Below, in pieces: positions 3,840 to 27,119 of a stretch of DNA of 27,230 nt. Each line of letters begins with the position of its first letter. Position 1 is the first letter of the stretch. Under the pieces are notes generated by a model, which was not told the origin of the DNA, did not search any database, and was given only the letters and a program-made list of their open reading frames with translations. This DNA comes from Candidatus Eiseniibacteriota bacterium. GTDB lineage: Bacteria > Arandabacterota > Arandabacteria > JAGLYR01. A program made the position numbers and the translations under genes. Location: assembly GCA_023132135.1 (NCBI GenBank), contig JAGLYR010000143.1, forward strand, positions 1-27,230. The letters are read 5' to 3'.

Positions 3840-4133
3840 ATGAAGTTCTGGAGAACCCCTTTGGATGTAGAGCGCCTCAAGGTTCCCCGCGGCGAAGTCC
3901 ACATTATCAAGGACCGCTGCAAGGGATGCGGTTTCTGTGTGGAGTATTGCCCCCGCGGCGCCCTTGAGATGTCCGACGAGTTTAACGCCAAGGGCTACCA
4001 TCCCCCAAGAATCACGGACGAGACTCTCTGTGTTAGCTGCAACCTCTGCGAAATGCTCTGTCCTGAGTTCGCCATCTTCTGCGTGCTCAAGGAGGAACCG
4101 GAACCTGGGGAGGAGAAGAAGGTTGAAGGCTGA
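3840..4133 (+). CDS. korD: 2-oxoacid:ferredoxin oxidoreductase, delta (ferredoxin) subunit
   Basis: This 97-residue bacterial-type ferredoxin carries two [4Fe-4S] motifs: C27-C30-C33-C37 (CKGCGFCVEYCP) and C64-C67-C70-C74 (CVSCNLCEMLCP). In KorDABC-type enzymes this subunit takes electrons from the thiamine site in KorB and hands them to external ferredoxin or, here, possibly to the neighbouring Hdr proteins. The ATG at 3840 is preceded by GGAGGCTCAAGG. It lies between korC and korA and overlaps korA by 11 bases. The 20-residue N-terminal extension before the first cluster and the acidic tail (EEPEPGEEKKVEG) are normal for the family. Confidence 0.92.
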   Translation: MKFWRTPLDVERLKVPRGEVHIIKDRCKGCGFCVEYCPRGALEMSDEFNAKGYHPPRITDETLCVSCNLCEMLCPEFAIFCVLKEEPEPGEEKKVEG

Positions 4134-5280: not shown

Positions 5281-6158
5281 GAGCGGATGCACCGGCCAAG
5301 CCGGCGATAGAACACCCGATGGAAAGCCTTCTGAGGATGGATCGGATTCCTCACATCTGGTGTCCGACCTGCGGCATCGGAACAGCAGTGACCGCCTTCG
5401 CCAGCGCGCTGGAGGAGAACGAGATCCCTCTTGACTCGGTCTCCGTCGTGTCGGGCATCGGGTGCACCGGGCGGGTGGCAGGGTACATGAAGCTTGATTC
5501 GTATCATACCACCCACGGGCGCGCGGTGCCCTTTGCGGTGGGTCTCCATCTGGCCAAGCCCTCCCTGAAGGTTGTCGTGTTCAGCGGGGACGGGGACCTG
5601 GCGGGAATCGGCGGGAACCACTTCATCCACACGGCCCGCCGGAATGTGGACATCACGGTCATCTGTGTGAACAACTTCCTCTACGCCATGACGGGTGGGC
5701 AGGTGGCGGCCACCACGCCCGTCAGCGCCAACACCTCGACGTCACCCTACGGGAATTTCGAGCAGCCCTTCAATCTACCGCTCCTGGCCCAGTCGTGCGG
5801 GGCGGTTTACGTGGCTCGATGGACGGCCCTTCACATCCGGCGAATGACCAAGGCCTTTGGCGAAGCGCTGAACAAGAAGGGGTTCTCGTTTGTCGAAGTT
5901 ATCGCCCCCTGTTCGACCCTCTACGCGCGCCGGAACCGGCTGGGCACAGGCCTCGATCTCATGAAGTTCTACCACGACAACAGTGAGATCCGTCACGGGG
6001 CTGACCCCAACGATCTGAATATCGGGTTCCAGGAGAAGATTATCTGCGGCAAGTTCGTCGATATCGAGAAACCGACCTTCCTGGATTCCATGAACGAGTG
6101 CTACGGCAAGTCACTTGGAGAGAAGTACGAAATCTACGAAGGAGCCGCCCATGCCTAG
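5277..6158 (+). CDS. korB: 2-oxoacid:ferredoxin oxidoreductase, beta subunit (TPP-binding)
   Basis: This is the catalytic beta subunit (293 aa). It binds thiamine diphosphate through GDG(D)...NN: GDGD at 104-107 and N132-N133 (VNNFLYAMTGGQ). It also carries the cysteines that hold the proximal [4Fe-4S] cluster (C29 and C32 in HIWCPTCGIGT, C63 in GIGCTGR). The conserved HTTHGRA segment is present. Start ATG 5277 follows AGGAGG and overlaps the korA stop. The C-terminal 60 residues match the family and include ICGKFVDIEKPTFLDSMNE. The following gamma gene starts 8 bases before its stop. Confidence 0.92.
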   Translation: MRADAPAKPAIEHPMESLLRMDRIPHIWCPTCGIGTAVTAFASALEENEIPLDSVSVVSGIGCTGRVAGYMKLDSYHTTHGRAVPFAVGLHLAKPSLKVVVFSGDGDLAGIGGNHFIHTARRNVDITVICVNNFLYAMTGGQVAATTPVSANTSTSPYGNFEQPFNLPLLAQSCGAVYVARWTALHIRRMTKAFGEALNKKGFSFVEVIAPCSTLYARRNRLGTGLDLMKFYHDNSEIRHGADPNDLNIGFQEKIICGKFVDIEKPTFLDSMNECYGKSLGEKYEIYEGAAHA

Positions 6159-6726
6159 GACAACCGGGATTCGGGTCAGTGGTTTCGGCGGGCAAGGCGT
6201 TATCATGATGGGGCACATCATCGGCAAGGGGGCCGCCATCTTCGATGGCCGACATGCCACGATGACGCAGAGCTTCGGACCCGAAGCGCGGGGTTCCGCG
6301 TGCAGCTCCCAGATCATCGTCTCCGACGATCGCATTCTCTACCCCTATCTGCGGCAGGCGGACATTCTGGTTGCCATGTCGCAGGAAGCCTATGGCAAGT
6401 TCCTGCCGGGCCTGAAACCCAAGGGGATACTGCTCATCGACGAGGATCTGGTGAGAATGAAGGAAAGACCCAAAGATGGGGTCAAGGTGTTCGCTGTTCC
6501 GGCTACCCGGTTCGCGGAGGAACTGGGACGCAGGATCGTTCTGAACATCGTGATGACGGGCTTTTTCGCTGCTGTGACGGGAGCGGTGAAGCCCGACTCG
6601 ATGCGGGAAGCCGTGAAGACCTCCGTCCCCAAGGGCACGGAGAATCTCAACCTCCAGGCGTTCGAGAAAGGCTTTGAGTACGGACGAGAGCAGGTAGAGG
6701 GACATGCTGCAGCGAAGCGACAATAG
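6151..6726 (+). CDS. korC: 2-oxoacid:ferredoxin oxidoreductase, gamma subunit (second copy)
   Basis: This is the second gamma subunit (191 aa), in the usual place after korB. It has the glycine loop [38 protein letters not shown] and the ending [18 protein letters not shown]. It is clearly a paralogue of the protein at 3269-3814, not a recent duplicate, because the two differ across their whole length. The ATG at 6151 is preceded by GGAG six bases upstream and overlaps korB by 8 bases; an in-frame ATG at 6115 would overlap korB by far more and has no comparable site. The gene overlaps hdrA1 by 23 bases, which physically joins the KOR module to the Hdr module. Confidence 0.9.
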
Positions 6727-9700
6727 CGAGTCCGAGTATCCGGCAGCGGAGACGGCCGGCGAGGAACAGGTCTCCGGGGACGGAGAAACGGGGAAATCTC
6801 CGGAGGAGCCTCGCGCCGCTTTGGTGATCGGGGGCGGAATAGCGGGAATCCAGGCGGCCATCGACCTTGCGGACTCCAATATCCGGGTATGCCTCGTGGA
6901 GAAGTCGCCCAGTCTGGGCGGCCGGATGGCCCAGCTGGACAAGACGTTCCCGACGATGGACTGCTCCATCTGAATTCTGGGACCCCGGATGATGGATGCC
7001 GGTCGGCATCCCAACATCGAGGTTCTCACGTACTCGGAGGTCATCGGTCTGGAGGGCGAAGCCGGCAGCTTCGTGGCCACCGTTCGCCGCCACCCGAGGT
7101 ACGTGTCGGAAGATCTCTGCACCGGTTGCGGCCAGTGTGTGGAGAACTGCCCGGTCGTGGTTCCCAACGAGTTCGACGAGGGGTTGGGAGCTCGGAAAGC
7201 CATCTACTCTCCTTTTGCACAAGCCGTTCCCAATATCTACGTGATTGATCGCGAGAACTGCCTCAACACCGACTTCCTGGTCTGCGAGAATTGCCGGAAG
7301 GCGTGCGAGAGGGAAGCCATTGACTACGACATGCGGCCCGAGGACCGGAGTTTCCGGATCGGGGCCGTGATCGTGGCAACAGGCTTCGACCTTTTCGATG
7401 CCCGGGTAATGAAGAACTACGGCTACGGGCTCTACTCCAATGTGCTGACGTCCATGGAGCTGGAGCGCATGCTGAACGCGTCCGGTCCCACGCAGGGGCA
7501 CATCGTACGCCCCAGCGACCGGAAACCTCCCGGATCCATCGTGTTCGTGCAGTGCGTGGGAGCCAGGGGGGAGGCGGGGCAGCAGTACTGTTCCCAGTGG
7601 TGCTGCATGAACACGGTCAAGGATTGTCTGCTGGTCAAGCAACACGAACCGGGGATCGAACGCCTGCAGGTTCTGTACACCGATATCCGGGCCGCGGGGA
7701 AAGGACTCGAGGAATTCTACGTGCGATCCCTGTCGCAACCGGAGGTCTCGTTCCTGCGAGGTCGACCGTCCCGAATTGAGGAGGAATCCGGGACCCGGGA
7801 TCTCATAATCCACGTCGAGGATACAACGACCGGCAAGATTGAGCGGATTCAGGCGGAGATGGTTGTCCTGGCCTCGGCGGCCGTCGCCGGGGCGGACAAC
7901 CGGAAGCTGGCCGGGGTGTTGGGGGTGGAACTGGACCCCCACAGGTTTTTCCAGTCCCGGGAGGCGGAAGGCGAGTTGCTGGAAACTACCCGGGAGGGTG
8001 TGTACCTCTGCGGCTGCGCGGGTGGTCCGAAGGACATCTCCGACTCGGTGGCCCAGGCTTCGGGAGCAGCGGCGCGGGCCGAGGCACACTTGGCCTCATC
8101 CCGGCGACCTGCCGAGAAGGTCAAGGTTGAGCCGCTGGACACATCCGGTCCTCCCAGGGTCGGGATTTTCCTCTGCCACTGCGGGATCAACATCGCGGGG
8201 GTGCTGGACATCGGCCGTATGGCCGAGGAGGCGCGCCGGTTGCCCCACGTGGCGTTTGTGGAGGAAAACCTGTTCCTCTGCTCCGACGCCGGGCAGAGGG
8301 TTGTTCAGGAGGCGATTCGGGAGCACCGGCTCAACAGAGTGGTGGCAGCTGCCTGCACTCCGCGGACCCACGAACCCGTCTTCCGCCAGAGTTGCCTGGA
8401 AACCGGGCTTAACCCATACCTTTTCGAGATGGTGAACGTTCGGGACCAGTGTTCCTGGGTACACAGCAATGAGCCGGCCCTGGCAACGATGAAGGCGGTG
8501 GACCAGATCCGGATGGCCGTGGCCCGGGCGTCGCGCCTGGAGGCGCTGGACTCCCGGGAGATCTCTGTGGAGCAGTCGGTCGTGGTGATCGGGGGCGGCA
8601 TTGCCGGTATGCAGGCGGCGCTGGATCTCGACCGCCAGGGTATCCCTGTCACCCTCATTGAGAAGGACAAGGTCTTGGGTGGCCGGCTCCTGGGCATTCA
8701 TCGCCTGTACCCCGATTTCCGGGAAGCTGCGGTTCTGCTGGAGAAGAAGCGGCGGCAGATCGAGGAGAGCCGCATTGTGGTCCAGACGAGCAGCCGTGTG
8801 GAATCCATCCGGGGCTTCGTGGGCAACTTTGACGTGACCACCGACCGGGCCGCCATCAGGACAGGGGCCCTCATTCTGGCCATTGGCGCCGATGTCTACA
8901 GACCAGAGGGAATGTATGGCTACGGCAGGTTCCCCAACGTGGTCACGGGCCTGGAGCTGGAAGATCTCTTCTTCGCGTCGGAGGGTAAACTGGAGCGGGA
9001 TGGTCATGAGGTCAAGACGGCCGCCTTCATTCAGTGTGTGGGATCGAGAGATCCCGAGCACCGGGTCAGCTGTTCCCGGTACTGCTGCCCGACGACGGTG
9101 AAGCAGGCCATCGAACTCCGGGACCTGGGCGTGAACGTGGTGGTCTTCTACCGCGACATGCGGACGGTATCCCACGGAACCGAGGAGCTCTACCGCCTGG
9201 CGAGAGAAAAGGGCGTGAGGTTCATTCCGTACACGCCGGAACATCCACCCAGGATAGAGGGCAAGACAGCGGCCGAGACCGCCTCGGTCCACTTGGACAT
9301 GGTGGGAGGCGAGATCGAGGTGGATATCGACCTGGTGATCCTTGCTACGGCCATGGTTCCCAGGGAAGAAGAAACGGCAGCGCTCCAGATGCTCCTGAAA
9401 GTTCCGAGGGGGACAGATGGTTTCCTGATGGAGCGACACGCCAAGTTGGGACCGGTGGAAACGGTGGTTGGAGGCGTGTTCATCTGTGGCACGGTGCAGG
9501 GACCGAAGGATATCGCCGAATCCATTGCCCAGGCATCCGCTGCGGCAGCGAAAGCCGCGGCCCTGGTGAGTCGGGAGCGCATCGAACTGGAACCCACCAC
9601 AGCCGTGGTGCAGACAGACCTGTGCCGGGCGTGCGGCCGCTGCGTGGAGATCTGTGATTTCCATGCTCCGGAGATCAAGGAGATGGAGGGCGGCGGTATG

Positions 9701-9844
9701 GCGGCGGTCATCAACCAGGCCCTGTGCAAGGGTTGCGGTACGTGCGCCGCGCTGTGCCCGACAGGCGCCATTGTGGCCCGTCACTTCACGGATGAGCAGA
9801 TCCTGTCGATGATCGATTCCCTGCTGCTGGGGGAGGTTGTCTAG
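6704..9844 (+). CDS. hdrA: HdrA-like iron-sulfur flavoprotein, tandem double module, selenoprotein (Sec90)
   Basis: This is an HdrA-family electron-bifurcating flavoprotein subunit (1046 aa including Sec). The reading frame is interrupted by TGA at 6971-6973 (residue 90). Protein similarity continues unbroken across it: [23 protein letters not shown] matches the HdrA motif where most members have Cys. Order: FAD-binding GGGIAG (43-48); Sec90; ferredoxin insert C139/C142/C145/C149 plus C186/C194/C197/C201; QCVGARGE...YCSQWCC; then a second HdrA copy with its own N-terminal domain (from about 484, [13 protein letters not shown]) and FAD loop (about 626). This second copy has RLYPDFREA where Cys/Sec and the insert should be. 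A two-cluster ferredoxin (about 969-1040) closes it. The first module lacks the usual HdrA N-terminal domain. Start ATG 6704 follows GTAGAGG and overlaps korC2. mvhD follows immediately. Confidence 0.88.
6994..7011 (+). promoter_or_regulatory. Bacterial SECIS hairpin of hdrA1
   Basis: GGATGCC-GGTC-GGCATCC forms a perfect 7-bp stem with a GGUC loop, beginning 20 bases after the UGA at 6971-6973. Bacterial SECIS elements are hairpins just inside the coding region after the UGA, with G and U in the loop read by SelB; position and loop fit. The same 18 bases occur at the same distance in hdrA2. Confidence 0.8.
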
Positions 9845-10294
9845 ATGGCTCGGAAGAAATCCCCCGCCGGCGGGAAAAAGAAGAAAGAGGAGTTTGTCCC
9901 GCGCATCGTGGTTTTCGCCTGCAACTGGTGCAGCTACGCCGGGGCGGACAGCGCCGGAGTCAACCGCATCCAGTACTCGCCCCACTTCCGGGTGATCCGG
10001 ACCATGTGTTCAGGGCGTGTACACCCGGGATTCGTGCTGCGGGCCTTTGAAATGGGAGCTGACGGCGTTCTGGTTTCGGGGTGCCACATCGGAGACTGTC
10101 ACTACATCTTCGGAAACGAGCGGGCCGTCGAGAACTACGAGAAGATGAAAGCCCTGGTCAGGACACTGGGGCTTGAGGAAGGCCGGATTGGTCTGGAGTG
10201 GGTGTCGGCGGCCGAGGGCCCCCGTTGGGGCCAGGTCATTGACGAGTTCGTCGAGCGGGTACGGAGGCTGGGGCCTTCGCCCGTGGGAAGGTGA
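9845..10294 (+). CDS. mvhD: MvhD-type iron-sulfur adaptor subunit
   Basis: This protein (149 aa) is homologous to the delta subunit of methyl-viologen-reducing hydrogenase, a small [2Fe-2S] protein that docks redox partners onto HdrA. The five expected cysteines are present: C26 and C29 ([12 protein letters not shown]), C55 (RTMCSGRV), C80 and C85 (SGCHIGDCHY). Sec-containing versions are known in the family, but this one uses Cys throughout. The lysine-rich N-terminus (MARKKSPAGGKKKKEE) is probably a flexible leader. Start ATG 9845 directly abuts the hdrA1 stop and has GGAGG eight bases upstream. An MvhD normally connects Hdr to a hydrogenase, formate dehydrogenase or NAD(P)H module; none of these is in the window, so its partner may be encoded elsewhere or may be KOR itself. 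Confidence 0.92.
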   Translation: MARKKSPAGGKKKKEEFVPRIVVFACNWCSYAGADSAGVNRIQYSPHFRVIRTMCSGRVHPGFVLRAFEMGADGVLVSGCHIGDCHYIFGNERAVENYEKMKALVRTLGLEEGRIGLEWVSAAEGPRWGQVIDEFVERVRRLGPSPVGR

Positions 10295-10360: not shown

Positions 10361-11500
10361 GTGGAATCGGTGATCCAGAGCATCAGGTCCAGCAGGGCCT
10401 ACTCCTGCCTTGAGTGCGGCAAGTGCACGGCGTCGTGCCCCATTGCCCGGTTCAACGGGGCGTTCTCTCCCCGGCGGGTAGTGGCGGAGGCCATTGAGCG
10501 AGGCGGGGGCGAGCATCTCCTGGCAGACGAGCTCCTGTGGGAATGCTTGACCTGTGGGATATGCGAGCTGCGGTGTCCCACGGATGTGCACTTCGGCGCC
10601 CTTGTCCGGTCGCTGCGAGCGGCAGCTGTCGAGCGGGGGTTTGCGGGCCATCCCTCCCACGGGGGTGTTCTCCAATCTCTGATGCGAATGATGACGTCCC
10701 CGACCCTCAAGCAGGACCGGATGTGGTGGGTCACCGAGGACCTGGAGGTGGAGTCCCGCGGCGAGATTCTCTACTTCGTCGGATGCCTGCCTTACTTCGA
10801 TGATCTGTTTGCGCCGGACCTGAATCTGCGGTCCACGGACATTGCCCGGTCCACGGTTCAGTTGCTGAACGCTGCCGGAATCAAGCCGGTCGTCGACTCC
10901 AACGAGCGGTGTTGCGGTCACGATCTTCTCTGGACGGGAGATGTGGAGAATTTCAGACGCCTTGCTGAGCATAACGTCGCCGCCATCAGGGAAACGGGTG
11001 CGACGGTAGTGGTGACGGCATGCGCGGAGTGCGCGAAGACACTGAGGGACGTCTACCCTGAATGGGTCGGGCCGCTGGGTTTCGAAGTGAAGCATCTGTC
11101 CAGCCTGATCGTTGAACACGCGAGCAGTTTCAGATTCAAGGAGAACACGGGAAAAGTCACCTTCCAGGATCCATGCCGGCTGAGCCGGCACATGGGTGAA
11201 GTCGCCGCGCCGCGTCAGGCGATGGGTCTCGTGCCGGGACTGGAGCTGGTTGAGATGCTTCACTCGGGCGTAAACGCGGTCTGCTGCGGAACGAGCGCGT
11301 GGACGAATTGCGGCCAGACATCCAGGAGTATCCAGGCGGAACGGTTGCAGGAGGCGGGCAGTACGGGGGCCGCGACTCTGGTGACGGCGTGTCCCAAGTG
11401 TCAGATCCACTTCCGCTGCGCTCTCTCGGATGGCAGGGCGGACGCAGAGAACAACATGAATATTCAGGACCTGAGTGTTCTTCTCGCATCGTGTTTGTAA
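10361..11500 (+). CDS. HdrC-HdrB fusion (HdrD-like iron-sulfur protein)
   Basis: This 379-residue protein joins an HdrC-type ferredoxin to an HdrB-type catalytic half, as in HdrD-like proteins. Ferredoxin clusters: C16-C19-C22-C26 and C62-C65-C68-C72. CCG domain 1: C142, C184-C185, C221, C224; CCG domain 2: C272, C308-C309, C344, C347. In HdrB the CCG domains hold unusual non-cubane [4Fe-4S] clusters that reduce a disulfide. The second CCG motif reads CCGTSAWTNC, so the substrate may not be a heterodisulfide. The start is GTG at 10361, preceded by GGAGG at a long distance; the 66 bases before it hold no gene. Its 3' end overlaps the edge of a 39-bp tandem repeat array. It belongs to the long cluster and would accept electrons from HdrA1 or HdrA2. 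Confidence 0.88.
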   Translation: MESVIQSIRSSRAYSCLECGKCTASCPIARFNGAFSPRRVVAEAIERGGGEHLLADELLWECLTCGICELRCPTDVHFGALVRSLRAAAVERGFAGHPSHGGVLQSLMRMMTSPTLKQDRMWWVTEDLEVESRGEILYFVGCLPYFDDLFAPDLNLRSTDIARSTVQLLNAAGIKPVVDSNERCCGHDLLWTGDVENFRRLAEHNVAAIRETGATVVVTACAECAKTLRDVYPEWVGPLGFEVKHLSSLIVEHASSFRFKENTGKVTFQDPCRLSRHMGEVAAPRQAMGLVPGLELVEMLHSGVNAVCCGTSAWTNCGQTSRSIQAERLQEAGSTGAATLVTACPKCQIHFRCALSDGRADAENNMNIQDLSVLLASCL

Positions 11501-11652: not shown

Positions 11653-11687
11653 GTGAGTGGCCAACCAAGCAGGAGGTGAATGCGGAA

Positions 11688-14168
11688 ATGCCCGGGGCGG
11701 CAAACAGGAATGGGGTGAGAGTCGGTGTGTTCGTCTGCGACTGCGGGTTGAATATCGCCGGGACCGTGGACTGCGGAGCGGTCGCCGAGTATGCCGGAAC
11801 TCTCGATGGCGTGGTTGCAGTCATTCGCAACAAGTACACGTGCGCGGATCCAGGACAGAACGAGATCAAGAAGGCCATTGTGGAGCACAACCTGAACCGC
11901 GTGGTGGTTGCCTCCTGTACACCCAAGATCCATGAGCCGACGTTCCGGAACTGTGTGGCCGAAGCGGGGATGAATCCCTACCTGTTTGAGATGGCCAACA
12001 TTCGGGAGCATGTCAGCTGGGTCCACCAGAACGAGAAGGATGCGGCCACGGACAAGGCAAAAGCCATCGTCCGTGCGGCCGTCGCCAGGGCCCGACTCCT
12101 GGAACCCCAGATCGAAGCCGAGGTGGCGGTGGAACAGGCGGCGTTGGTGATCGGCGGGGGCATAGCCGGGATCCAGGCCGCGCTGGACCTCGCCGATGCA
12201 GGCCACCAGGTCTACCTGGTAGAAAAGGAGCCATCCATTGGGGGGATCATGGCTGCCCTGGACAAGACCTATCCCACGATGGACTGCTCCATATGAATTC
12301 TCGGACCCAAGATGATGGATGCCGGTCGGCATCCCCGGATCGAACTTCTGTCCAACAGCGAAGTTACAAAGGTGAAAGGTTATGTCGGAAACTTCACCGT
12401 CACGGTCAAGCGCAAAGCGCGGTATGTGGACGAGAAGGAGTGCACCGCGTGCAACGAGTGTGTAGAGGTGTGTCCCGTGGCGGTTCCGGATGAGTACCAG
12501 CAGGGTTTCTCGTCCCGCAAGGCCATCTACATTCCCTTCCCCCAATCCGTCCCGTCGTCGTTCATCATCGACATGGAGAGCTGTCTTGGGAACAATCCCA
12601 TTGCCTGCGGGAAGTGCCTCGAAGCCTGTGACAAGAACTGCATAGACTTCGACGACCAGGACAGGTTCGTTGATCTGGAGGTTGGGACCATCATATGCGC
12701 CACGGGGATGGATGTCTACGACCCCACTGAGATAGTTGAATACGGCTACCGGAGGTACGAGAACGTTATCACCAGCATGGAGTTCGAGCGGCTGATCTGT
12801 GCCAGCGGTCCCACAGAAGGGCACTTCATGCGTCCCAGCGACCAGAAGCGCCCGCTGAGAATCGGATTCATCCAGTGCGTGGGCTCTCGCTCTGAGAAGC
12901 GGGGCGTGGCCTACTGCGGAAACATCTGCTGCATGAACACGATCAAGGATACTCTCCTTCTGGCGGATCACTATCCGGATACTGAGAGCAAGGTGTTCTA
13001 CATGGACATCCGGGCCTTCGGTAAGGGATTCGAAGATCTCTATCGCCGAAGCAAGGAAGCCGGGGCGCAATACATCCGCGGGCTCCCGGGAGAGATCGTC
13101 GAGGACCCCAAGAGCAAGAACCTCGTGGTCCGGGTGGAGAACACCACGGCGGGACGTCTGGAGGAACATGAGCTGGACATGGTGGTGCTGGCGGTGGGCG
13201 TCATCCCCAGACACGATGCTCCGGTGATGCGGCAGCTGCTGACCCTTTCGAAGACGGCCGACGGGTTCCTGATGGAGTCCCATCCGAAACTGAAACCTGT
13301 AGATGCGCCGTCCCGGGGGGTCTTCTTCGCCGGGTGCGCGGAGTATCCCAAGGATGTCAAGGACAGCGTGACTCAGGCTTCGGCTGCTGCCGCCCGGGCC
13401 GGGATTCTGCTGAGCCAGGGGAAGGTCTGCATCGAAGCGATCACATCCCGTATTGACGGCGACCTGTGCATCTACTGCGGCCGCTGTGCCAAGGTCTGCC
13501 CATACAACGCGATCACCGCTCCCGACCGCAAAAAGAAACAGCTTCCCATTGTGATCGAAGCAGCCTGCGCTGGGTGCGGCACATGCGCGGCGGAGTGCCC
13601 GACGGACGCCATCACGATGAAGCACTTCACTGACGAGCAGATTCTGGCGCAGATCGAGGCATACTTGGCGGAGGATCCGGAGGACCAGATCATCATCTTC
13701 GCGTGCAACTGGTGTTCCTACCCGGGTTCGGACCTGGCCGGGACCTCGCGTCTCCAGTACCCCACCCATGGCCGGGTGATCCGGACCATGTGTTCGGGGC
13801 GAGTGGCCGAGAAGTTTGTGCTCCGGGCTTTTGAGCTGGGCGCGCCGATTGTCCTCGTGTCCGGCTGCCACTTCTCCGACTGCCACTACATCAGTGCAGT
13901 GCAATGGACCCAGCGGCGAATTGAGAAACTCTGGGAAAAGATGGAGAAACTGGGTATCCGCCCGGAGAGACTCCAACTGGAGTGGATCAGCGCCGCCCAG
14001 GGTCAGAAGTGGGCGGAAGTTCAGCGCTCGCTGGAGGAGTTGCGCAAAAAGGTAACGAAGGAGGAAATAGGGGAAACCAGAAGGATCCTGGCACAGGAGC
14101 GGGCCAGGAAGGAGAAGAAGGCCAAGGGTAGGCCGAAAGCCGGAGCAGTTGCATCGGAACAGGAGTAA
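11688..14168 (+). CDS. hdrA: HdrA-MvhD fusion, selenoprotein (Sec203)
   Basis: This is a full HdrA flavoprotein fused to MvhD (826 aa including Sec). It is read through TGA at 12294-12296, residue 203, in [20 protein letters not shown], the same position as in hdrA1. Domains: HdrA N-terminal domain ([13 protein letters not shown] to about residue 140); FAD loop GGGIAG (about 156-161); Sec203; ferredoxin insert starting C252/C255/C258/C262; QCVGSRSEK...YCGNICC; two-cluster ferredoxin ([24 protein letters not shown], about 590-640); MvhD domain from about 665 (FACNWCSY...TMCSGRV...[10 protein letters not shown]); and a Lys/Glu-rich tail. I chose ATG 11688 because AGGAGGTGA (11671-11679) lies eight bases upstream; an in-frame GTG at 11676 overlaps that site. 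The layout resembles QmoB or HdrA-MvhD fusions of anaerobes that couple soluble electron carriers by flavin-based bifurcation. Confidence 0.9.
12317..12334 (+). promoter_or_regulatory. Bacterial SECIS hairpin of hdrA2
   Basis: GGATGCC-GGTC-GGCATCC starts 20 bases after the UGA at 12294-12296. It is identical in stem, loop and spacing to the element in hdrA1, while the bases between the UGA and the hairpin differ at several positions. It supports Sec insertion at residue 203. Confidence 0.8.
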
Positions 14169-14327: not shown

Positions 14328-17300
14328 ATGGATCAGTCTGCCAGTCTGAAACAGCGGGCCTCGGTTCTGGGCAATCACAACCAGAAGTACATCCGCACTA
14401 TCGAGAAGGTCCGGGACCGTTTCACCCACAGGCTCGAGGTCCGCGGGCTCCACGACAAGATACATTTCTACCGCGCGGCCCCGAACCTGAACGCGGAGAT
14501 GGATGCTATCGTCTCCGCGTCCAACGATCAACAGGACGCGCTGGACTTCCTCGGGTGCTACTACGCGTTCCGATTCCTGTACATGAACCTGAACTCCCTC
14601 GACAAGCTGCACCTGGAGATCCTCTCCGGCAGGGAGCGAATTCCGATCTACCGCCGGTTCATGAAACAAGCCGGAGTTGACTTCCGTTCCCTCACGACCC
14701 ACTACATGCAGCACCTGCTGGACATCTTCCTCCAGGACGGAGAGGTTCCGGAGTACGTTCTGCTGGGTACCGGGACCCGGGCGGACCAGGACGACATCGA
14801 TGTGGGGGTTGTGGTGGGGGAGGACGGAGACCGGGACCACCTGGACCGCGCTGTCGGACGGCTCCGGGCGGAAATGCTGAGGCATGCCAGTTCTCTGCAC
14901 TTCCACCTCTCCGAGCATGTTGGCACCCGGGTCTACTCCGCGACCGTGGAAGAGTACCAGGCGCTGCTAACCAAGCGGATCCACAATTTCGTGATCATCT
15001 CCGAGATGGTGGGCGCGGCCCGCATCCTGGGTTCCCATCGGTTGTTCGAGGGGTTCCAACGGAACATCACCGACCGCTACTACCACAGCTTTGGCGAGAA
15101 CATCTACCACGAGGGATTTCTCAGGGGGATTGTGGGGGAAATCCGGGCACTCCTGGCCTATCCGGTTCAGATGGAATCCATTCATCCCAAGAACGATGGT
15201 CTTCGGATCGTCAAAGGCCTGATCGCTGCGATGAAGACCATCGTCGGTGTGCAGGAAGTCAACGCCTGGGCCATCCTGGATGAACTCAAGAAACGGGATC
15301 CGGGGAACCTCGTGATCTATGGGAAGCTGGACACCTCCCTGACTTTCCTGGAGATCTTCCGCTACCTCTACCAACTGCTGGTTGTCCAGGAGGAAGATAT
15401 TCCCCTCCGTGACAGCAACATGCAGGACAACCTGCAGCAGGTCGCGATCCAGATGGGCTACAGAGACGTGGGGATTGTCAAGGCCTGGAACCACCTGGTC
15501 ATTCACTACAACGAGCATGTTCATGAGGCGCGGGCGGCGGCAGCGGCCCTCATGCCCTTTCTCACACATCACCTGGGGGAGTTCTCGATTTTCCGGTCGA
15601 TGGCCCAGGCAGCTCAGGTGCCGAATGTTACCGAGAACGCAGGACAAAACGTGGCGGCGAGCTTCATCTGGGAAGCAGGGTTCTTCGGCGGGACGTGCTA
15701 CTGGGACGACGTTCTGGCACTCCTGGAATCGGAAGACGGAAAGATCATGGGGCGCTATCTGGCCGACATCCTGGTCCTGGACAAACCGGCGCGGACGAGG
15801 CTGCTCCGGCGATATGCCGCGTGCGCTGCTTTCGCTCCCTTTTCCATCCTCCGGCTCCTGGTTCTCATCAAACGCTACCGGGGCTGTCCCGAATCCGGGG
15901 AGGTTTTTGGTGAGCTGACGGGTCTCGTCCTGGACGAACTCAAGCGGCATCCCGACACGTCCACCCGGTTATGCATGCTGTTCCACCTCTATCCAGGGGG
16001 CATGAACAGTTTCCTGGAAGCGATCTCGGATGAGGACCGCTTCCAGATTCGGGAACTGCTGCAGCGACCCATCTACGACGATGGCTTCGCATCCATCCGG
16101 GATACGCTTCTCTATCTCTGTAACCTGCACATCGAGATGAGCCGCGCGTTCAAGCGGCAGGTCATGAGCGTGGTCAAGCGCCACCCCAACGTTCTTCACG
16201 ACATACGCGATTTCGAGTCGCTCCGGCACATGGCCCGGGGATTCTACGCCGAGAGCCAGCGGATGCCGGATTTCGCCGACCGTAAACAGCTGTTGGGGGA
16301 CTACTATGACTTGTCCTACCTTGCAGTGGCGCTGGAAACGCTGGCCGGTGGATCCATACAGGAGCGGAACGCCCGATTCACCGAGTTCTCGGATGACTAC
16401 GTCGAGTCTCTCCTCGACCTCTGCCGCCAGGAGGTGGAAGAGGAGTCGGGAAAGCCGGTGGATACCCGGGATCTGCTGGCTTTCTACGCTGCCGGAGGCA
16501 ACGCCCGCGAGCAAGCTTTTGACGACGACTACGACATGTTCTTCGTTCTCAATTCCGAGGATGAAGACGTCCGGGCCCACTGCAATCGAATCGCCGGGAA
16601 AATGAACAGCGAGATCGCCAAACGCGGTGTGCTGCCCCAGTACCGTCTGGCCGATCATTTCGGCCACTATGTGACCCTGGCCAGGGAGATCGGAGAGTTG
16701 CTGACGGCCCCGGGCGAATGCGTGTTTGTGGATCAGTCCCAGATCCTGGGGTCCCGGATGGTGGTGGGAAGCCACAGGTTCGAAGAGGACTTCGAAGAAC
16801 ACGTGATAGGGCCGCTGATCTTCAAGAACTCGGAGCGCTATGTACGCGAGATGATAGAGGAAATCCACTGCCGGCACGCGGAGGAATCGTCCGACGTACC
16901 CTGCATGGATATCAAGGAGTGCAGAGGTGGGCTCCGGGATATCGAGATGGTGCTGCTGGTTCTCAAGGCGAAGTACGGGGTCCGTATGCATCTGGGCGAG
17001 CAATTCATGGATCTCATGATTGAAATCCGCAAGGATCACGCCCCGGCAGTCCGGCTGCTGAGAGACGGGTTGTACTTCCTCAAGAACCTGCGGGACGTCC
17101 ATCGGCTGACCTCGGGCAACGATGACTTCATCCAACAGAATTCCTTTGTGGCCGCGGCCCGCGCAATGGGTCTCAGGAAGAACGGAGAGTGGGACTGGGA
17201 AAGCGTTGCCGAGAAGTTCCGCGAGTGGACCCGGGTGGTGAGCCGGACAACAGACGAGCTGATCCACACGATTGAAAAGGAGGAACTGGACCTTCTGAAC

Positions 17301-17636
17301 CTCCTTTCGTTTGCGGGCTTTGACTTCCGGAGCAAGGTGGAGTCGATGATCGCCGATGGTGCGGCGGAGATGTGTCGCTCCTGCGACAGGTGTCTCCAGG
17401 TGTGCCCAATGGTGCGGGAGTCGCCGTCGTTTGATCCGGGCGAGATTCTCCGCCGGGCGTTGTTCAAACGGGACCAGGGCCTTGTTGCCCTCGATTCCTC
17501 CAGCTGGAAGTGCCTGAGCTGCTACGAGTGCTTCGGAGTGTGTCCACTGCCGGTGTGTCCGATGGAGGTGATGTTCGCGCTGAAGAGGTGCATCTGTCAG
17601 CTCAAGGGAATCCCCCCGGAGGTTAATGCAGGTTAG
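14328..17636 (+). CDS. Double GlnE/GlnD-like nucleotidyltransferase fused to an HdrC-type ferredoxin domain
   Basis: This 1102-residue protein has two nucleotidyltransferase modules and an iron-sulfur tail. Module 1: LLGTGTRADQDDIDVGVVV (145-163, putative metal-binding D156 and D158), later HPKNDGLRIVKGLI. Module 2: AAGGNAREQAFDDDYDMFFVL (721-741, D734 and D736), later MDIKECRGGLRDIEMVLLVLK (860-880), the motif shared by GlnE adenylyltransferases and GlnD uridylyltransferases. Each is followed by a long helical region, the plan of GlnE. No HD phosphohydrolase or ACT domain of GlnD is visible. The C-terminus has two [4Fe-4S] motifs of HdrC type: C1016-C1019-C1022-C1026 and C1062-C1065-C1068-C1072. 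GlnE and GlnD attach AMP or UMP to glutamine synthetase or PII; the target here is unknown. Start ATG 14328 has GAAGGG upstream. It is the last gene of the kor-hdr cluster, so the ferredoxin tail probably contacts the Hdr proteins. The stop lies in a palindromic repeat. Confidence 0.85.
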   Translation: MDQSASLKQRASVLGNHNQKYIRTIEKVRDRFTHRLEVRGLHDKIHFYRAAPNLNAEMDAIVSASNDQQDALDFLGCYYAFRFLYMNLNSLDKLHLEILSGRERIPIYRRFMKQAGVDFRSLTTHYMQHLLDIFLQDGEVPEYVLLGTGTRADQDDIDVGVVVGEDGDRDHLDRAVGRLRAEMLRHASSLHFHLSEHVGTRVYSATVEEYQALLTKRIHNFVIISEMVGAARILGSHRLFEGFQRNITDRYYHSFGENIYHEGFLRGIVGEIRALLAYPVQMESIHPKNDGLRIVKGLIAAMKTIVGVQEVNAWAILDELKKRDPGNLVIYGKLDTSLTFLEIFRYLYQLLVVQEEDIPLRDSNMQDNLQQVAIQMGYRDVGIVKAWNHLVIHYNEHVHEARAAAAALMPFLTHHLGEFSIFRSMAQAAQVPNVTENAGQNVAASFIWEAGFFGGTCYWDDVLALLESEDGKIMGRYLADILVLDKPARTRLLRRYAACAAFAPFSILRLLVLIKRYRGCPESGEVFGELTGLVLDELKRHPDTSTRLCMLFHLYPGGMNSFLEAISDEDRFQIRELLQRPIYDDGFASIRDTLLYLCNLHIEMSRAFKRQVMSVVKRHPNVLHDIRDFESLRHMARGFYAESQRMPDFADRKQLLGDYYDLSYLAVALETLAGGSIQERNARFTEFSDDYVESLLDLCRQEVEEESGKPVDTRDLLAFYAAGGNAREQAFDDDYDMFFVLNSEDEDVRAHCNRIAGKMNSEIAKRGVLPQYRLADHFGHYVTLAREIGELLTAPGECVFVDQSQILGSRMVVGSHRFEEDFEEHVIGPLIFKNSERYVREMIEEIHCRHAEESSDVPCMDIKECRGGLRDIEMVLLVLKAKYGVRMHLGEQFMDLMIEIRKDHAPAVRLLRDGLYFLKNLRDVHRLTSGNDDFIQQNSFVAAARAMGLRKNGEWDWESVAEKFREWTRVVSRTTDELIHTIEKEELDLLNLLSFAGFDFRSKVESMIADGAAEMCRSCDRCLQVCPMVRESPSFDPGEILRRALFKRDQGLVALDSSSWKCLSCYECFGVCPLPVCPMEVMFALKRCICQLKGIPPEVNAG

Positions 17637-17812
17637 CCTGCATTTCTCACCAGTTTTCTGCTGCGGTACCGGTCCATGGGCTGCGAGGAGCCTTTTCCCT
17701 CGTCGCTTCCTCAACGTAGCCACGGCTACGCCTTCGGGAGCGACTCAGTCCAAAGGCACCTCTCGCCACATGGCCCGGCCCCTCGCGACGAAACCTGGTG
17801 AGAAACGCAGGC
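17636..17812. repeat. Giant imperfect palindrome with 18-bp terminal inverted repeats
   Basis: GCCTGCATTTCTCACCAG (17636-17653) is matched in inverse at 17795-17812 with one difference. The two halves remain alignable all the way to a perfect core, CGTAGCC-AC-GGCTACG (17715-17730), with shared blocks such as CCGGNCCATG, GCCTTT and GTCGCT. The whole could fold into one long hairpin in RNA or single-stranded DNA. The left edge also forms AATGCAGG-TTAG-CCTGCATT (17625-17644) around the stop codon. It has the shape of a MITE-like or large REP element; no transposase is nearby. Confidence 0.7.
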
Positions 17813-17823
17813 TAGACGGCGAG

Positions 17824-17866
17824 GTGGCGAGTGCGAGAGTGGGCGACAGGGCGAGGGCGAGAACAG
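17824..17866 (+). repeat. 43-bp dispersed repeat, left copy
   Basis: The segment starting GTGGCGAGTGCGAGAG and ending GGCGAGAACAG matches the reverse complement of 21978-22020 at 41 of 43 positions by my count. The two copies face each other on either side of the korDAB-hdrCB operon. Confidence 0.75.
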
Positions 17867-17911
17867 CGAACCCTTGGCCGCAGATTACGCAGAGCAAGAA
17901 GGTCGGGTTTT

Positions 17912-17932
17912 CCCTCTCCCTCTGGGAGAGGG
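17912..17932. repeat. Strong hairpin between convergent operons
   Basis: CCCTCTCCC-TCT-GGGAGAGGG has a perfect 9-bp stem and a 3-base loop, followed by TAGGGTGAGGG. This sequence type is a widespread bacterial intergenic repeat. It could act as a bidirectional stop or RNA-protecting hairpin, but no T-run follows on either strand. Confidence 0.6.
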
Positions 17933-17961
17933 TAGGGTGAGGGTATGATGCCCTTCTCCTT

Positions 17962-17994
17962 GGACTACGCACTAGGGACTACGCACTAGGGACT
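17962..17994. repeat. 14-bp tandem repeat ending in a small palindrome
   Basis: GGACTACGCACTAG occurs twice in a row (17962-17989) and starts again (GGACT). The array runs into AGGGAC-T-GTCCCT (17988-18000), a 6-bp inverted repeat. It lies just after the hdrB stop on the minus strand and may be a transcript-end structure. Confidence 0.6.
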
Positions 17995-18015
17995 GTCCCT
18001 GATGCCCTTTCCCAT

Positions 18016-18897
18016 CTATGCGGTAGGCAGTCCGAGTTTCTCAAGGAGCGGATGCACCTTGATCTTGTGCATGTGCAGGCCCATATCCCTTGGGCTCAGA
18101 CCCTGCGCCAGACCCAGGAGCTGGAAGTAGTAGACAACGGGAATGTTGAACTTGCGGTGAAATCTCCTGGACAAGCGCAGCTGTCCGAGATCGAACTCAT
18201 CGAAGCACGTGGGGCATATGAGCCCCATGCAGTCGGCGTTCACTTGCGCGATGCCGTCGAGGATGTCGCGAGTCATCTCCGCAGGCATCTCGTCGGAGAT
18301 ACAGGCCTTGCCGCAACAGAGAAGGTTCTCGCTATGTACGACGGGAGTGGCGCCGACAAGACGCGTCAGATCCTCGAGAATCGTCGGCTGGTTAGGATCG
18401 TCCACCCGCATGATCTTGCTGGGTTTGAGCAGGTGGCACCCGTAGTGGATGGCTACGACAAGGTCGTCCAGGGGACGCGTCACCGACGCCGCCACCTTTT
18501 CCAGTCCCACGTCGTCGCGCAACACGGTCACGATGTGGCGGACCGAGATCTCGCCCTTGTATTCTTTTCCCACCTTCTTCAGCCGGATGTTGACCTCGTC
18601 CCGCAGCCCGGGATCTTCCTCCAGAATGTGGTGCGCCTCGCTGAGGGTCGCCGTGCAGCCGCTGCACATAGTGATGATGTCGAGCCCGGCTTCTTCGGCG
18701 ATGCACAGATTCCGCGCGGCCAGTGTGAGCCAGATCATCTTGTCGCCGGCCTTGAAGTAGATCGGGTCCGGACAGCAGCTGAATCCCTCCAGGTCCACCA
18801 GCTCCATCCCCAGCGCCGGGCATGTCTTCCGGACCGCGGCCTCGAACTGCGGGTACTTGAGGGAGATCATACAACCGTAGAAGGGTGCGTAGCGCAC
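18016..18897 (-). CDS. hdrB: Heterodisulfide reductase subunit B homologue
   Basis: This is an HdrB-family protein (293 aa) with two CCG domains: C9, C41-C42, C78, C81 (GCMIS, SCCPDP, MCSGC) and C154, C194-C195, C228, C231 (YGCHLLKP, LCCGKA, CPTCFDEFD). In methanogens these hold the two non-cubane clusters that split the CoM-S-S-CoB disulfide; in bacteria the substrate is usually unknown. The full cysteine set suggests an active centre. The start is GTG at 18897 with CGGAGGAAG just upstream; hdrC ends 18 bases before. It is the last gene of the minus-strand korD-korA-korB-hdrC-hdrB operon. No hdrA is in this operon, so it would need HdrA1 or HdrA2 from the facing cluster to receive electrons. 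Confidence 0.92.
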   Translation of the reverse strand: MRYAPFYGCMISLKYPQFEAAVRKTCPALGMELVDLEGFSCCPDPIYFKAGDKMIWLTLAARNLCIAEEAGLDIITMCSGCTATLSEAHHILEEDPGLRDEVNIRLKKVGKEYKGEISVRHIVTVLRDDVGLEKVAASVTRPLDDLVVAIHYGCHLLKPSKIMRVDDPNQPTILEDLTRLVGATPVVHSENLLCCGKACISDEMPAEMTRDILDGIAQVNADCMGLICPTCFDEFDLGQLRLSRRFHRKFNIPVVYYFQLLGLAQGLSPRDMGLHMHKIKVHPLLEKLGLPTA

Positions 18898-18915: not shown

Positions 18916-19377
18916 CTATTCTTCCAGCAATTTCTGGATCTCTTCGACCGGCACCGGTTTCACGGGCTCCAGACCGAGCTCTTTCCGTCTTCTGTCGACC
19001 AGCGGACTCCACGCGACGGTCCGTCCCTGCTCGTTCACGCTTTTCTGAATCTGCTCCAGTATTCCCGGGGCCCGCTTCCCGCCGGACGCGATGTTCTTGA
19101 GCGCGATGATGACTTCGATGGGGCGAACGTCCTGGGGGCATCTCTCATAGCAGGTGTAGCAGTTGGTACAGAGCCAGATGGGTGAGTTCTCCCCGATCAG
19201 CGCTTCTTCCTGCCCGAGGAGGGCCAGGAGCATGATCTGCCGGGGGTTGAAATCGGGGGAATACCGAGCCGCAGGGCAGTCCGCCACACAGGCGCCGCAC
19301 TGGTAGCAGTAGTTGTGATGGTCTCCATCGATAATGGCGTCGAGGCGCTTGCGGAATTCAAAGTTGAGCTTGGCCAT
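18916..19377 (-). CDS. hdrC: Heterodisulfide reductase subunit C homologue
   Basis: This 153-residue ferredoxin-like subunit carries electrons from HdrA to HdrB through two [4Fe-4S] clusters: C24-C27-C30-C34 (CYQCGACVADCP) and C70-C73-C76-C80 (CTNCYTCYERCP). Between them lies the typical FNPRQIMLLALLG segment, and PIEVIIALKNIA follows the second motif. The ATG at 19377 is 7 bases after the korB stop, so the KOR and Hdr halves are cotranscribed. The last 40 residues are charged and helical and may contact HdrB. Confidence 0.93.
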   Translation of the reverse strand: MAKLNFEFRKRLDAIIDGDHHNYCYQCGACVADCPAARYSPDFNPRQIMLLALLGQEEALIGENSPIWLCTNCYTCYERCPQDVRPIEVIIALKNIASGGKRAPGILEQIQKSVNEQGRTVAWSPLVDRRRKELGLEPVKPVPVEEIQKLLEE

Positions 19378-19384
19378 GTTGGTT

Positions 19385-20203
19385 CTATGCTCTCTGCGCT
19401 GCCGCCATGATCAGGCGATCGTACTCTTCGACGTACTCCGGGGTGTCCACGTCTTTGAAGGTGCCAACGACGATCTTGTCGACCAGTTCCTCGGGAGTCA
19501 TCTTCTCCGCCTCAGTAATCTTGACGGACGTCTCCTTGAGCTGGCGTAGCATCGTGGCACCGTCACCCAAGCGGTTCTTGCGGCCGTAGGAGGTGGGACA
19601 CGGCGACATGGCCTCGATGAGGGCGAAGCCTTTCCTGCGGATCCCCCGCTCGATGAACTTGTCCAGAAGGCGTGCCTGGTATGCAGTGGCCCGGGCAACG
19701 TAGGCCGCGCCGGCCGCCGCGGCCAGATGACACACGTCGAAGGGTTGCTCGATGTTTCCGAAGGGCAGTGTGCTGGCCTTCATCCCGCGGGGGGTGGTGG
19801 GTGAACCCTGTCCTCCCGTCATGCCGTAGATGTAGTTGTTGAAGACCACCACTGTAAGATCGATGTTTCTCCGTGCCGCATGGATCAGATGATTCCCACC
19901 GATGGCGGTGGCATCCCCGTCCCCGGTAACCACGATCACGTTCATCTCGGGCTTCGCCATTTTCACACCCGTCGCAAAGGCAATTGCCCGGCCATGGGTG
20001 GTGTGCAACGTGTTGAAGTCGACGTATCCGGGTGTGCGGGAGGAACAGCCGATTCCCGACACCATCACGATGTTGTCCTTCCGGAGCTCCAGTCGATCGA
20101 TGGCCCGGAGAAGGGCTTTCAGTACGATGCCATGGCCGCATCCGGAACACCAGATGTGGGGGAACTTCGTCATCCGAAGGTATTTCGTGTAATCCGTGAG
20201 CAC
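19385..20203 (-). CDS. korB: 2-oxoacid:ferredoxin oxidoreductase, beta subunit (second module)
   Basis: This is the catalytic TPP-binding beta subunit (272 aa) of the second KOR module. It shows HIWCSGCGHGI and GIGCSSR for the proximal [4Fe-4S] cluster, HTTHGRA, the TPP motif GDGDATAIGGNH followed by FNNYIYGMTGGQ, and SPTTPRG. It is slightly shorter than the first KorB. The start is GTG at 20203, directly after the korA stop, with GAGG nearby. It is closely related in plan to KorB at 5277-6158 but differs enough that the two enzymes may use different oxoacids. Confidence 0.92.
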   Translation of the reverse strand: MLTDYTKYLRMTKFPHIWCSGCGHGIVLKALLRAIDRLELRKDNIVMVSGIGCSSRTPGYVDFNTLHTTHGRAIAFATGVKMAKPEMNVIVVTGDGDATAIGGNHLIHAARRNIDLTVVVFNNYIYGMTGGQGSPTTPRGMKASTLPFGNIEQPFDVCHLAAAAGAAYVARATAYQARLLDKFIERGIRRKGFALIEAMSPCPTSYGRKNRLGDGATMLRQLKETSVKITEAEKMTPEELVDKIVVGTFKDVDTPEYVEEYDRLIMAAAQRA

Positions 20204-21340
20204 CTATGCGACCTCGCGAACTGCAGTTATGATTTCCTTGGGAGTGATCGGCTCACCGTCCACACGGTTTACACGGACGATCTCCGCGTGGCAACCGGCA
20301 ACCCGTTCCACCTCACGGGCAAACTGGCCCAGGCTCATTTCTGGGACGATCAGATGAGATACCTGCTTGCCGAAGTCCCGGATTTCCTCATCCGGGAAGG
20401 GCCAGACGGTGACGGGTTGGAGGAGTCCCACTGGAATCCCCTCGCTTCGGGCGGCCTTGACGGTGTGGCGTGCCGTCCGGGCTGTCGAACCATAGGCGAC
20501 GATGCCGATGCGGGCATCGTCGGTTTCCATCTTCCGGACCTGGAGAATGTCGTCCCGGTAGCGGTGGAGCTTCCTGTTGAGACGCCGGTACTGGAGATCG
20601 ATTTCCCGGGTGTTGTTGGTGGGGAAACCCGTCTCGTCGTGGGCAAGACCGGTCACGTGGTACCGGTACCCGTCGCCGAAGGCCGGCATCGGGTTGAGAT
20701 CGGTCCCGCTGTGGCTGTACGGCAAGTACTCTTCCGGGGGCATCCCGGGCTTTTCCCGATTCACCACTTCCAGATCCTCGGGCGCCGTAATCTCCACCTT
20801 TTCTCTCATGTGCCCCACCACTTCGTCCAGAAGCAGGACCACGGGCGTCCGGTATTTCTCCGAGAGGTTGAAGGCCCGCACAGTCAGTTCATACGCTCCG
20901 GTGACGGTGGCCGGGGCAATAACGATGATGGGATGATCCCCGTGCCTTCCCCAGCGGGCCTGCTGAAAATCGGCTTGCGCCGGTTGTGTCGGAACACCAG
21001 TACTGGGTCCGCCGCGCATCACGTTTACGATCACACAGGGGATTTCAGCCATGGCCGCATACCCGATGTTCTCCTGCTTGAGAGAGAAACCCGGCCCCGA
21101 GGTCGCGGTCAGGGATTTAACTCCGCACAGGGAGGCCCCGATGATGGCTCCCATGGATGCGATTTCGTCCTCCATCTGGATGAAGCGGCCGCCGTTCCTG
21201 GGGAGGAGATACGACAGCACCTCACCAATCTCGGAGGAGGGAGTGATGGGGTATCCGGCGAAGAACCGGCATCCTGCGGCGACGGCCGCCAAGGCACAGG
21301 CTTCGTTGCCGGAGAGCATCTGGGCTTTCCGTTCTGCCAT
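20204..21340 (-). CDS. korA: 2-oxoacid:ferredoxin oxidoreductase, alpha subunit (second module)
   Basis: This is the alpha subunit (378 aa) of the second KOR module. Motifs: AGYPITPSSEIGE, MEDEIASMGAIIGAS, TSGPGFSLKQEN, MRGGPSTGVPTQPAQ and VPEMSLGQFAREVER. I chose the ATG at 21340 (MAERKAQMLSGNEA), one base after the korD stop; an upstream in-frame ATG at 21409 lies inside korD. It abuts korB with no gap. No gamma subunit gene is present in this operon, although KOR enzymes need the gamma domain either as a separate or a fused chain, and no fusion is seen here. Confidence 0.92.
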   Translation of the reverse strand: MAERKAQMLSGNEACALAAVAAGCRFFAGYPITPSSEIGEVLSYLLPRNGGRFIQMEDEIASMGAIIGASLCGVKSLTATSGPGFSLKQENIGYAAMAEIPCVIVNVMRGGPSTGVPTQPAQADFQQARWGRHGDHPIIVIAPATVTGAYELTVRAFNLSEKYRTPVVLLLDEVVGHMREKVEITAPEDLEVVNREKPGMPPEEYLPYSHSGTDLNPMPAFGDGYRYHVTGLAHDETGFPTNNTREIDLQYRRLNRKLHRYRDDILQVRKMETDDARIGIVAYGSTARTARHTVKAARSEGIPVGLLQPVTVWPFPDEEIRDFGKQVSHLIVPEMSLGQFAREVERVAGCHAEIVRVNRVDGEPITPKEIITAVREVA

Positions 21341-21341
21341 T

Positions 21342-21584
21342 TCACACCGCCCTGTCGTTGTCCTTGATTTCATTGACCGCGATGGCGAAATCCGGACAGA
21401 GCATCTCACACTGGTAGCACAGGATACAGGCCGACTCGTTGCGGACCACGGCCTTCAGGCCGTGCATTTCGAACACCTGCTTGGGGCAGAACTCGACGCA
21501 AATCCTGCATCCCTTGCACCAGGATTCGTTCACAACCACACTGGCTTTTCGCTTCTTCTTCGCTTTCGGTTCGGTTTCAGACAT
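21342..21584 (-). CDS. korD: 2-oxoacid:ferredoxin oxidoreductase, delta (ferredoxin) subunit (second module)
   Basis: This 80-residue ferredoxin has two [4Fe-4S] motifs, C23-C26-C29-C33 (CKGCRICVEFCP) and C53-C56-C59-C63 (CILCYQCEMLCP). It starts at ATG 21584 and has a lysine-rich N-terminus (KAKKKRK) not found in the first KorD. It is the first gene of the minus-strand operon, about 37 bases after a predicted transcription start. It should pass electrons from KorB towards HdrC/HdrB or a shared HdrA. Confidence 0.92.
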   Translation of the reverse strand: MSETEPKAKKKRKASVVVNESWCKGCRICVEFCPKQVFEMHGLKAVVRNESACILCYQCEMLCPDFAIAVNEIKDNDRAV

Positions 21585-27030: not shown

Positions 27031-27119
27031 GGAACTACCTCCTGCAGGGGTATGGATTGGTCGAGGGGAAGGACTCAGTCGGATTCCAAGGCCCTTGGAC
27101 AAAGAAGACATGACCCGGT

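Follow-up and report, generated by a model that had tools for sequence, protein, structure and literature searches.

What would a nucleotidyltransferase gain from an electron-carrier domain at its C terminus, and why should such a protein be encoded beside the genes of 2-oxoacid oxidation? The question is raised by one gene of Candidatus Eiseniibacteriota bacterium (assembly GCA_023132135.1), which lies on contig JAGLYR010000143.1, positions 1 to 27,230 of the forward strand; these 27,230 nucleotides are the window of the present analysis. The gene (14328-17636, + strand) joins a two-module nucleotidyltransferase resembling GlnE to an HdrC-type tail, and its neighbours are kor genes, for 2-oxoacid:ferredoxin oxidoreductase (KOR), and hdr genes. 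GlnE turns glutamine synthetase on or off by means of adenosine monophosphate (AMP), and it is in nitrogen control that this kind of protein AMPylation is known. Each part of the fusion protein is of a known kind; a limited literature search found no publication on the fusion or on a kor-linked GlnE-like family, nor one joining AMPylation with 2-oxoglutarate and ferredoxin oxidoreductase. The reading tentatively preferred here is that of a GlnE-like reversible protein nucleotidylyltransferase serving KOR or a KOR-Hdr complex, the tail of which would dock into, and probably read, the Hdr relay.

A family linked to KOR

The strongest new result is a family-wide link to KOR. The nucleotidyltransferase part has some 70-80 sampled homologues across many candidate phyla, which were found by an alignment-based scan, a single-sequence scan of genome contigs having returned none. 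Within the GTDB species genomes, the profile scan gave 68 homologous loci, spanning KSB1, WOR-3/Stahlbacteria, Zixibacteria, Latescibacterota, Calditrichota, Neomarinimicrobiota, Gemmatimonadota, Effluviviacota and others; a further 18 of 385 sampled genomes carry the family, these being partly the same genomes as those of the 68-locus set. No relatives of the nucleotidyltransferase part were found in viral contigs and plasmids, and no other carrier was found in the window's own class (eight genomes); the phylum of genome G008 holds a single genome. At 43 of the 68 loci, korC stands upstream of the nucleotidyltransferase gene, within 900 bp and on the same strand, the count being 37 of 54 among loci with at least 2.5 kb of upstream sequence and 24 of 38 clusters after clustering at 60 % identity. 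At two loci (L087 and L090) the gene lies within the kor operon itself, in the order korA-korC-nucleotidyltransferase-korD-korB, and at three more (L008, L119 and L120) kor genes flank it on both sides. Hdr genes are close by at 19 loci, and L049 and L076 come near the layout of the window, with hdrA, mvhD, hdrBC, hdrA-mvhD, (korC), the nucleotidyltransferase gene and a convergent hdrB-hdrC pair. The window protein bears both marks of this KOR-linked GlnE-like family, namely full-length homology with both D-x-D sites, and kor genes nearby.

The fusion gene and its two nucleotidyltransferase modules

The gene is an unbroken open reading frame of 1102 amino acids, with an ATG start, a TAG stop and zero internal stops, in which a GlnE-like part (residues 1-985) is followed by a domain of HdrC type with two [4Fe-4S] motifs (residues ~996-1102). 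GC content at third codon positions is even from end to end, and the codon score of the tail equals that of the remaining gene and falls in the other two frames. The nucleotidyltransferase part stops where its unfused relatives end, while the tail starts where stand-alone HdrC starts. A search of the genome (345 contigs) found no near-identical copy of either half elsewhere, and no stretch that exceeds about 30 % identity to the tail. Because composition and codon use are constant over the junction, nothing near-identical lies elsewhere in the genome and the domain ends match, an artefact is unlikely; nothing points to a frameshift or chimera, and the fusion described in the first-pass annotation is upheld.

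Modules 1 and 2 are homologous to each other (hhalign probability 99.8, E 4.6e-30). In the AlphaFold2 model, which has a mean predicted local distance difference test score (pLDDT) of 88 and exceeds 85 over most of the first 985 residues, residues 565-980 superpose on the GlnE structure 1V4A with a Z score of 33.7 (root-mean-square deviation 3.9, 389 residues aligned), and the module 2 region matches a second GlnE structure, 3K7D, at Z 30.3 and the AMPylase domain of DrrA at Z 24.2. The top structural matches of module 1 are adenylyltransferases of AadA type, at Z about 8.5. Both pairs of catalytic aspartates, D156/D158 and D734/D736, sit exactly where the first-pass annotation had placed them, as does the GlnE/GlnD-type motif DIKECRGGLRDIE, and homologues retain them: G149, D156, D158, K288, R293, G723, D734, D736, K863, G867 and D871 are invariant in 63/63 aligned rows, so both active sites are under constraint. 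Pfam assigns GlnD_UR_UTase (PF08335) to residues 839-979 (E 2.3e-13) and, at borderline significance, DUF294 to residues 675-768; it found no HD or ACT domain in the 1102 residues, again as annotated, and no match to PF03710, the canonical GlnE domain. As modelled, the first 985 residues thus have the fold and two-module layout of GlnE, yet are not GlnE by the PF03710 family test.

The HdrC-type tail and a second fusion

The tail holds eight cysteines in two sets (C1016/1019/1022/1026 and C1062/1065/1068/1072), which are predicted to bind two [4Fe-4S] clusters. Pfam places Fer4_8 at residues 1013-1073 (E 3.3e-7), matches in NCBIfam and the PDB assign residues ~1014-1091 to HdrC, and identity to stand-alone HdrC of such clusters is 32-39 %. 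Since MAFFT had set the stand-alone HdrC rows elsewhere in the large alignment, the tail was unreliable in the full-length model and was folded separately with HdrC rows, whereupon its seven top PDB matches were all HdrC, with template modelling (TM) scores of 0.71-0.76. The tail keeps 8/8 cluster cysteines, against 20/38 of the remaining positions at which at least 9 of 10 HdrC rows agree (Fisher one-sided P 0.012), and the prolines of both cysteine motifs are also retained. The tail was thus rightly called HdrC-type as regards its motifs, matches and fold; what it represents, however, is the N-terminal two-cluster part of HdrC, the last ~50 residues being absent. The best explanation of the tail is a duplicated, fast-evolving copy of HdrC.

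Directly behind the fusion gene lies an interspersed repeat which starts TAGCCTGCATTTCTCACC and whose first bases, TAG, act as that gene's stop codon. The genome holds 68 stretches matching this repeat, many of them partial, with dozens of copies, and the other copies inspected likewise start TAGCCTGCATTT; Rfam gave no match within the window. Insertion of the repeat may have shortened the tail. The same repeat seems to provide a stop codon at L128 as well.

A second member of the family ends in another iron-sulphur domain. In a genome of Candidatus Effluviviaceae Genus IV (Effluviviacota), locus L100 (WJLY01000125.1, 8866-12258) encodes a family member of 1131 residues with a C-terminal ferredoxin-type domain for two [4Fe-4S] clusters (Fer4_6, E 2.5e-8) and coding-like composition in that tail. 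Its cluster is like that of the window, the nucleotidyltransferase gene coming directly after hdrA-mvhD and being followed by a convergent hdrB-hdrC pair. That two lineages have different cluster domains at this same end suggests convergence, and the independent fusion in L100 makes a functional link between nucleotidyltransferase and electron carrier more credible than a single case would. Separate genes for such proteins also follow the nucleotidyltransferase gene directly, hdrC in L058 and korD in L087, L090, L008, L119 and L120. As tailed homologues, three of these loci, at which the match seemed to reach the tail, were considered and rejected: L058, where hdrC is a separate gene, and L090 and L120, which are without a tail and have a separate korD next.

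Proposed function and its alternatives

In the preferred reading, a protein side chain would most likely receive AMP, or uridine monophosphate (UMP), through module 2, and module 1 would most likely remove the nucleotide or act on a second site. The HdrC copy would have become fused to the C terminus in the window organism, where a tail with two [4Fe-4S] clusters would let the enzyme dock into the KOR-Hdr relay and probably read its redox state, so that 2-oxoacid oxidation would be adjusted as the ferredoxin/Hdr pool changes state. Fold and residues suggest the chemistry of nucleotide transfer; gene order, by itself, is what suggests redox control; and the identity of the nucleotide and the docking are conjectural. 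Carried to its full extent, the idea would be one of redox-gated AMPylation, in which electrons in the cluster pair (HdrC-type here, ferredoxin-type in L100) control a GlnE-like enzyme that reversibly modifies KOR, as a feedback of the ferredoxin/Hdr pool on 2-oxoacid oxidation in several candidate phyla; in this complete form it is unlikely. A kor-tied GlnE-like family in many uncultured phyla, most of which lack detectable GlnE and many of which lack detectable PII, would extend metabolic control by nucleotidylylation into a new branch, and its two separate fusions with electron-carrier domains argue directly, and in a testable way, for a redox-wired version.

Several observations weigh against this reading. 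As an architecture, the HdrC fusion was seen in one genome only, the other sampled homologues having no HdrC tail, and what recurs beside kor is the unfused family. Kor genes were not nearby at 16 of the 54 loci with enough upstream sequence. In the HdrC tree a very long branch and weak support keep the tail from being placed, its C-terminal part is absent, and the cysteine-retention test is modest. For the putative nucleotidylyltransferase, the candidate target, KOR or a KOR-Hdr complex, is suggested by gene order only. Several of the kor-less loci (including L092, L093 and L102) have succinate dehydrogenase/fumarate reductase genes near the nucleotidyltransferase gene, which also counts on this side.

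The main rival, somewhat unlikely, holds that the tail does no more than tether the enzyme to the Hdr complex through the protein-protein surface of HdrC, nucleotide transfer being free of redox control. The unfused family does work without a tail in nearly all homologues, and at L058, where hdrC and hdrB follow as separate genes, proximity alone appears to be useful. Yet all eight cysteines survive where many other conserved residues of HdrC do not, a pattern that docking alone would not require; HdrC's C-terminal portion is absent; and the domain gained by L100 is of ferredoxin type, so that the two fusions have clusters in common rather than an HdrC surface. A less probable explanation sees the tail as a remnant in decay, an hdrC duplicate into which reading continued by chance and which the interspersed repeat cut short, with the nucleotidyltransferase as the only functional part. 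The long branch, the ~50 missing residues and a stop codon that comes from the repeat would suit such a history, but the open frame, with coding-like codon use in that frame only, the retention of 8/8 cysteines with their prolines, and the analogous fusion in a second lineage do not.

A small molecule or nucleic acid, instead of a protein, as the substrate of the enzyme is suggested by the likeness of module 1 to small-molecule adenylyltransferases of AadA type, and is improbable given the far stronger match to the protein adenylyltransferases GlnE and DrrA and the two-module layout and size of GlnE. Glutamine synthetase and PII, which the first-pass annotation had in mind as substrates, are very improbable targets for a protein that would link nitrogen control to 2-oxoglutarate. 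Its GlnE fold would fit, and since no other GlnD_UR_UTase protein was detected in the genome, it could replace GlnE; however, the genome, which is 96.4 % complete, has no match to PII (PF00543) or to canonical GlnE (PF03710), its single glutamine synthetase lacks the region of the KNLYDLP-type adenylylation tyrosine, and the neighbours are kor rather than glnA. Of 28 genomes that carry the family, 16 gave no PII match at all and 25 no canonical GlnE, while the other three carry canonical GlnE together with the KOR-linked protein; this marks the family as a distinct protein that does a job of its own. Least credible of all is an assembly artefact joining two genes: the fusion is known from a single contig of a metagenome-assembled genome, no second genome has the same fusion and a repeat lies directly behind the gene, but that repeat comes after the fusion and not at the junction, over which composition and frame run smoothly, the domain ends coincide with those of relatives, the tail is no copy of other sequence in the genome, and a convergent hdrB-hdrC pair follows the gene as it does in L049, L076, L082, L085 and L086.

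The gene cluster of the window and other neighbouring genes

The KOR-Hdr setting given in the first-pass annotation was borne out by domain searches of the neighbours and by comparison with the loci of relatives (Table 1). In both HdrA proteins the motif DCSI*ILGP is the site of an in-frame TGA, probably a selenocysteine codon in each; standard gene callers would therefore split both genes. A gene for a tricorn-type protease (PD40, Tricorn_C1, PDZ, S41) lies at 23761-27111 on the - strand.

Table 1. Positions in the window of the fusion gene, its parts and the surrounding features (aa, residues of the fusion protein)
Feature	Position	Strand	Basis or remark
korC (gamma), family-linked type	3269..3814	+	PRK08537, E 8e-64; reference for linkage count
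korD ferredoxin subunit	3840..4133	+	two C-x2-C-x2-C-x3-CP motifs in translation
korA (start approximate)	4130..5280	+	POR_N, PRK08659
korB	5277..6158	+	Pfam, NCBIfam
second korC	6151..6726	+	KorC-type sequence in translation
HdrA-type protein, in-frame TGA 6971-6973	6698..9844	+	HdrA2 model from position 199 on; gene start provisional
MvhD/FlpD	9845..10294	+	Pfam, E 2.3e-50
HdrC-HdrB-like (TfrB-like) protein	10361..11500	+	Pfam, NCBIfam
HdrA-MvhD protein, in-frame TGA 12294-12296	11676..14168	+	HdrA2 positions 1-192 and 199-775 flank TGA
nucleotidyltransferase-HdrC fusion gene, 1102 aa	14328..17636	+	open reading frame, Pfam/NCBIfam, composition
module 1 (aa 115-420), Pol-beta-type nucleotidyltransferase fold and helices	14670..15587	+	homologous to module 2
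module 1 catalytic motif G149-T-R-x-D-Q-D-D156-I-D158	14772..14801	+	G149, D156, D158 in 63/63 rows
central helical region (aa 421-625)	15588..16202	+	AlphaFold2 model, pLDDT mostly >85
module 2 (aa 630-985), GlnE adenylyltransferase-type catalytic domain	16215..17282	+	structure matches
module 2 catalytic motif G723 ... D734-x-D736	16494..16535	+	G723, D734, D736 in 63/63 rows
DIKECRGGLRDIE, GlnE/GlnD-type motif (aa 861-873)	16908..16946	+	K863, G867, D871 in 63/63 rows
HdrC-type tail (aa 996-1102)	17313..17633	+	without last ~50 aa of stand-alone HdrC
first [4Fe-4S] motif C1016-x2-C-x2-C-x3-C1026-P	17373..17405	+	alignment, residue check
second [4Fe-4S] motif C1062-x2-C-x2-C-x3-C1072-P	17511..17543	+	alignment, residue check
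interspersed repeat	17634..18014		first bases TAG = stop codon of fusion gene
hdrB-like, convergent operon	18016..18897	-	translation; hdrB-type neighbours in relatives
stand-alone hdrC	18916..19377	-	33 % identity to fused tail
korB, family-linked type	19385..20203	-	similarity search
korA, family-linked type (start approximate)	20204..21346	-	similarity search
korD ferredoxin subunit	21342..21584	-	sequence check

Other genes also stand near the family. At 21 loci there is an extra gene between korC and the nucleotidyltransferase gene; that of L056 (7679-8455) is a small gene for a DUF6036 nucleotidyltransferase (E 1.2e-5), and that of L033 has no Pfam match. Downstream, an acetokinase-family (butyrate-kinase-like) gene is found at 10 loci (e.g. 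L048, 17699-18829) and a nucleoside diphosphate kinase gene at L041, L044, L053, L057, L073 and L091.

Comparison with known systems

In GlnE, a central part is flanked by two homologous domains (PMC12409994), and the window protein shares with GlnE structures (1V4A, 3K7D) a pair of homologous Pol-beta-type modules with a helical region between them, a similar length, the GG(L/I)RDIE motif and the fold of module 2. Unlike GlnE, it has no PF03710 match and a shorter motif loop in module 1, it is linked to kor and carries an HdrC tail, and its genome has no detectable PII or adenylylatable glutamine synthetase. With GlnD, the PII uridylyltransferase, it has PF08335 in common, whereas it lacks HD and ACT, possesses two nucleotidyltransferase modules and comes from a genome without detectable PII. 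The AMPylase domain of DrrA/SidM has a similar fold around module 2, but DrrA is a single module and a secreted effector, with no link to kor or to iron-sulphur proteins. The tail resembles HdrC of HdrABC (5ODC, 7BKB, 8RVU) in its two C-x2-C-x2-C-x3-CP motifs and its fold, and differs in being fused to a nucleotidyltransferase, diverged and missing the C-terminal part. The L100 protein belongs to the same nucleotidyltransferase family, likewise ends in a domain with two [4Fe-4S] motifs and likewise lies in a KOR-Hdr cluster, its tail being of ferredoxin type whereas that of the window protein is of HdrC type.

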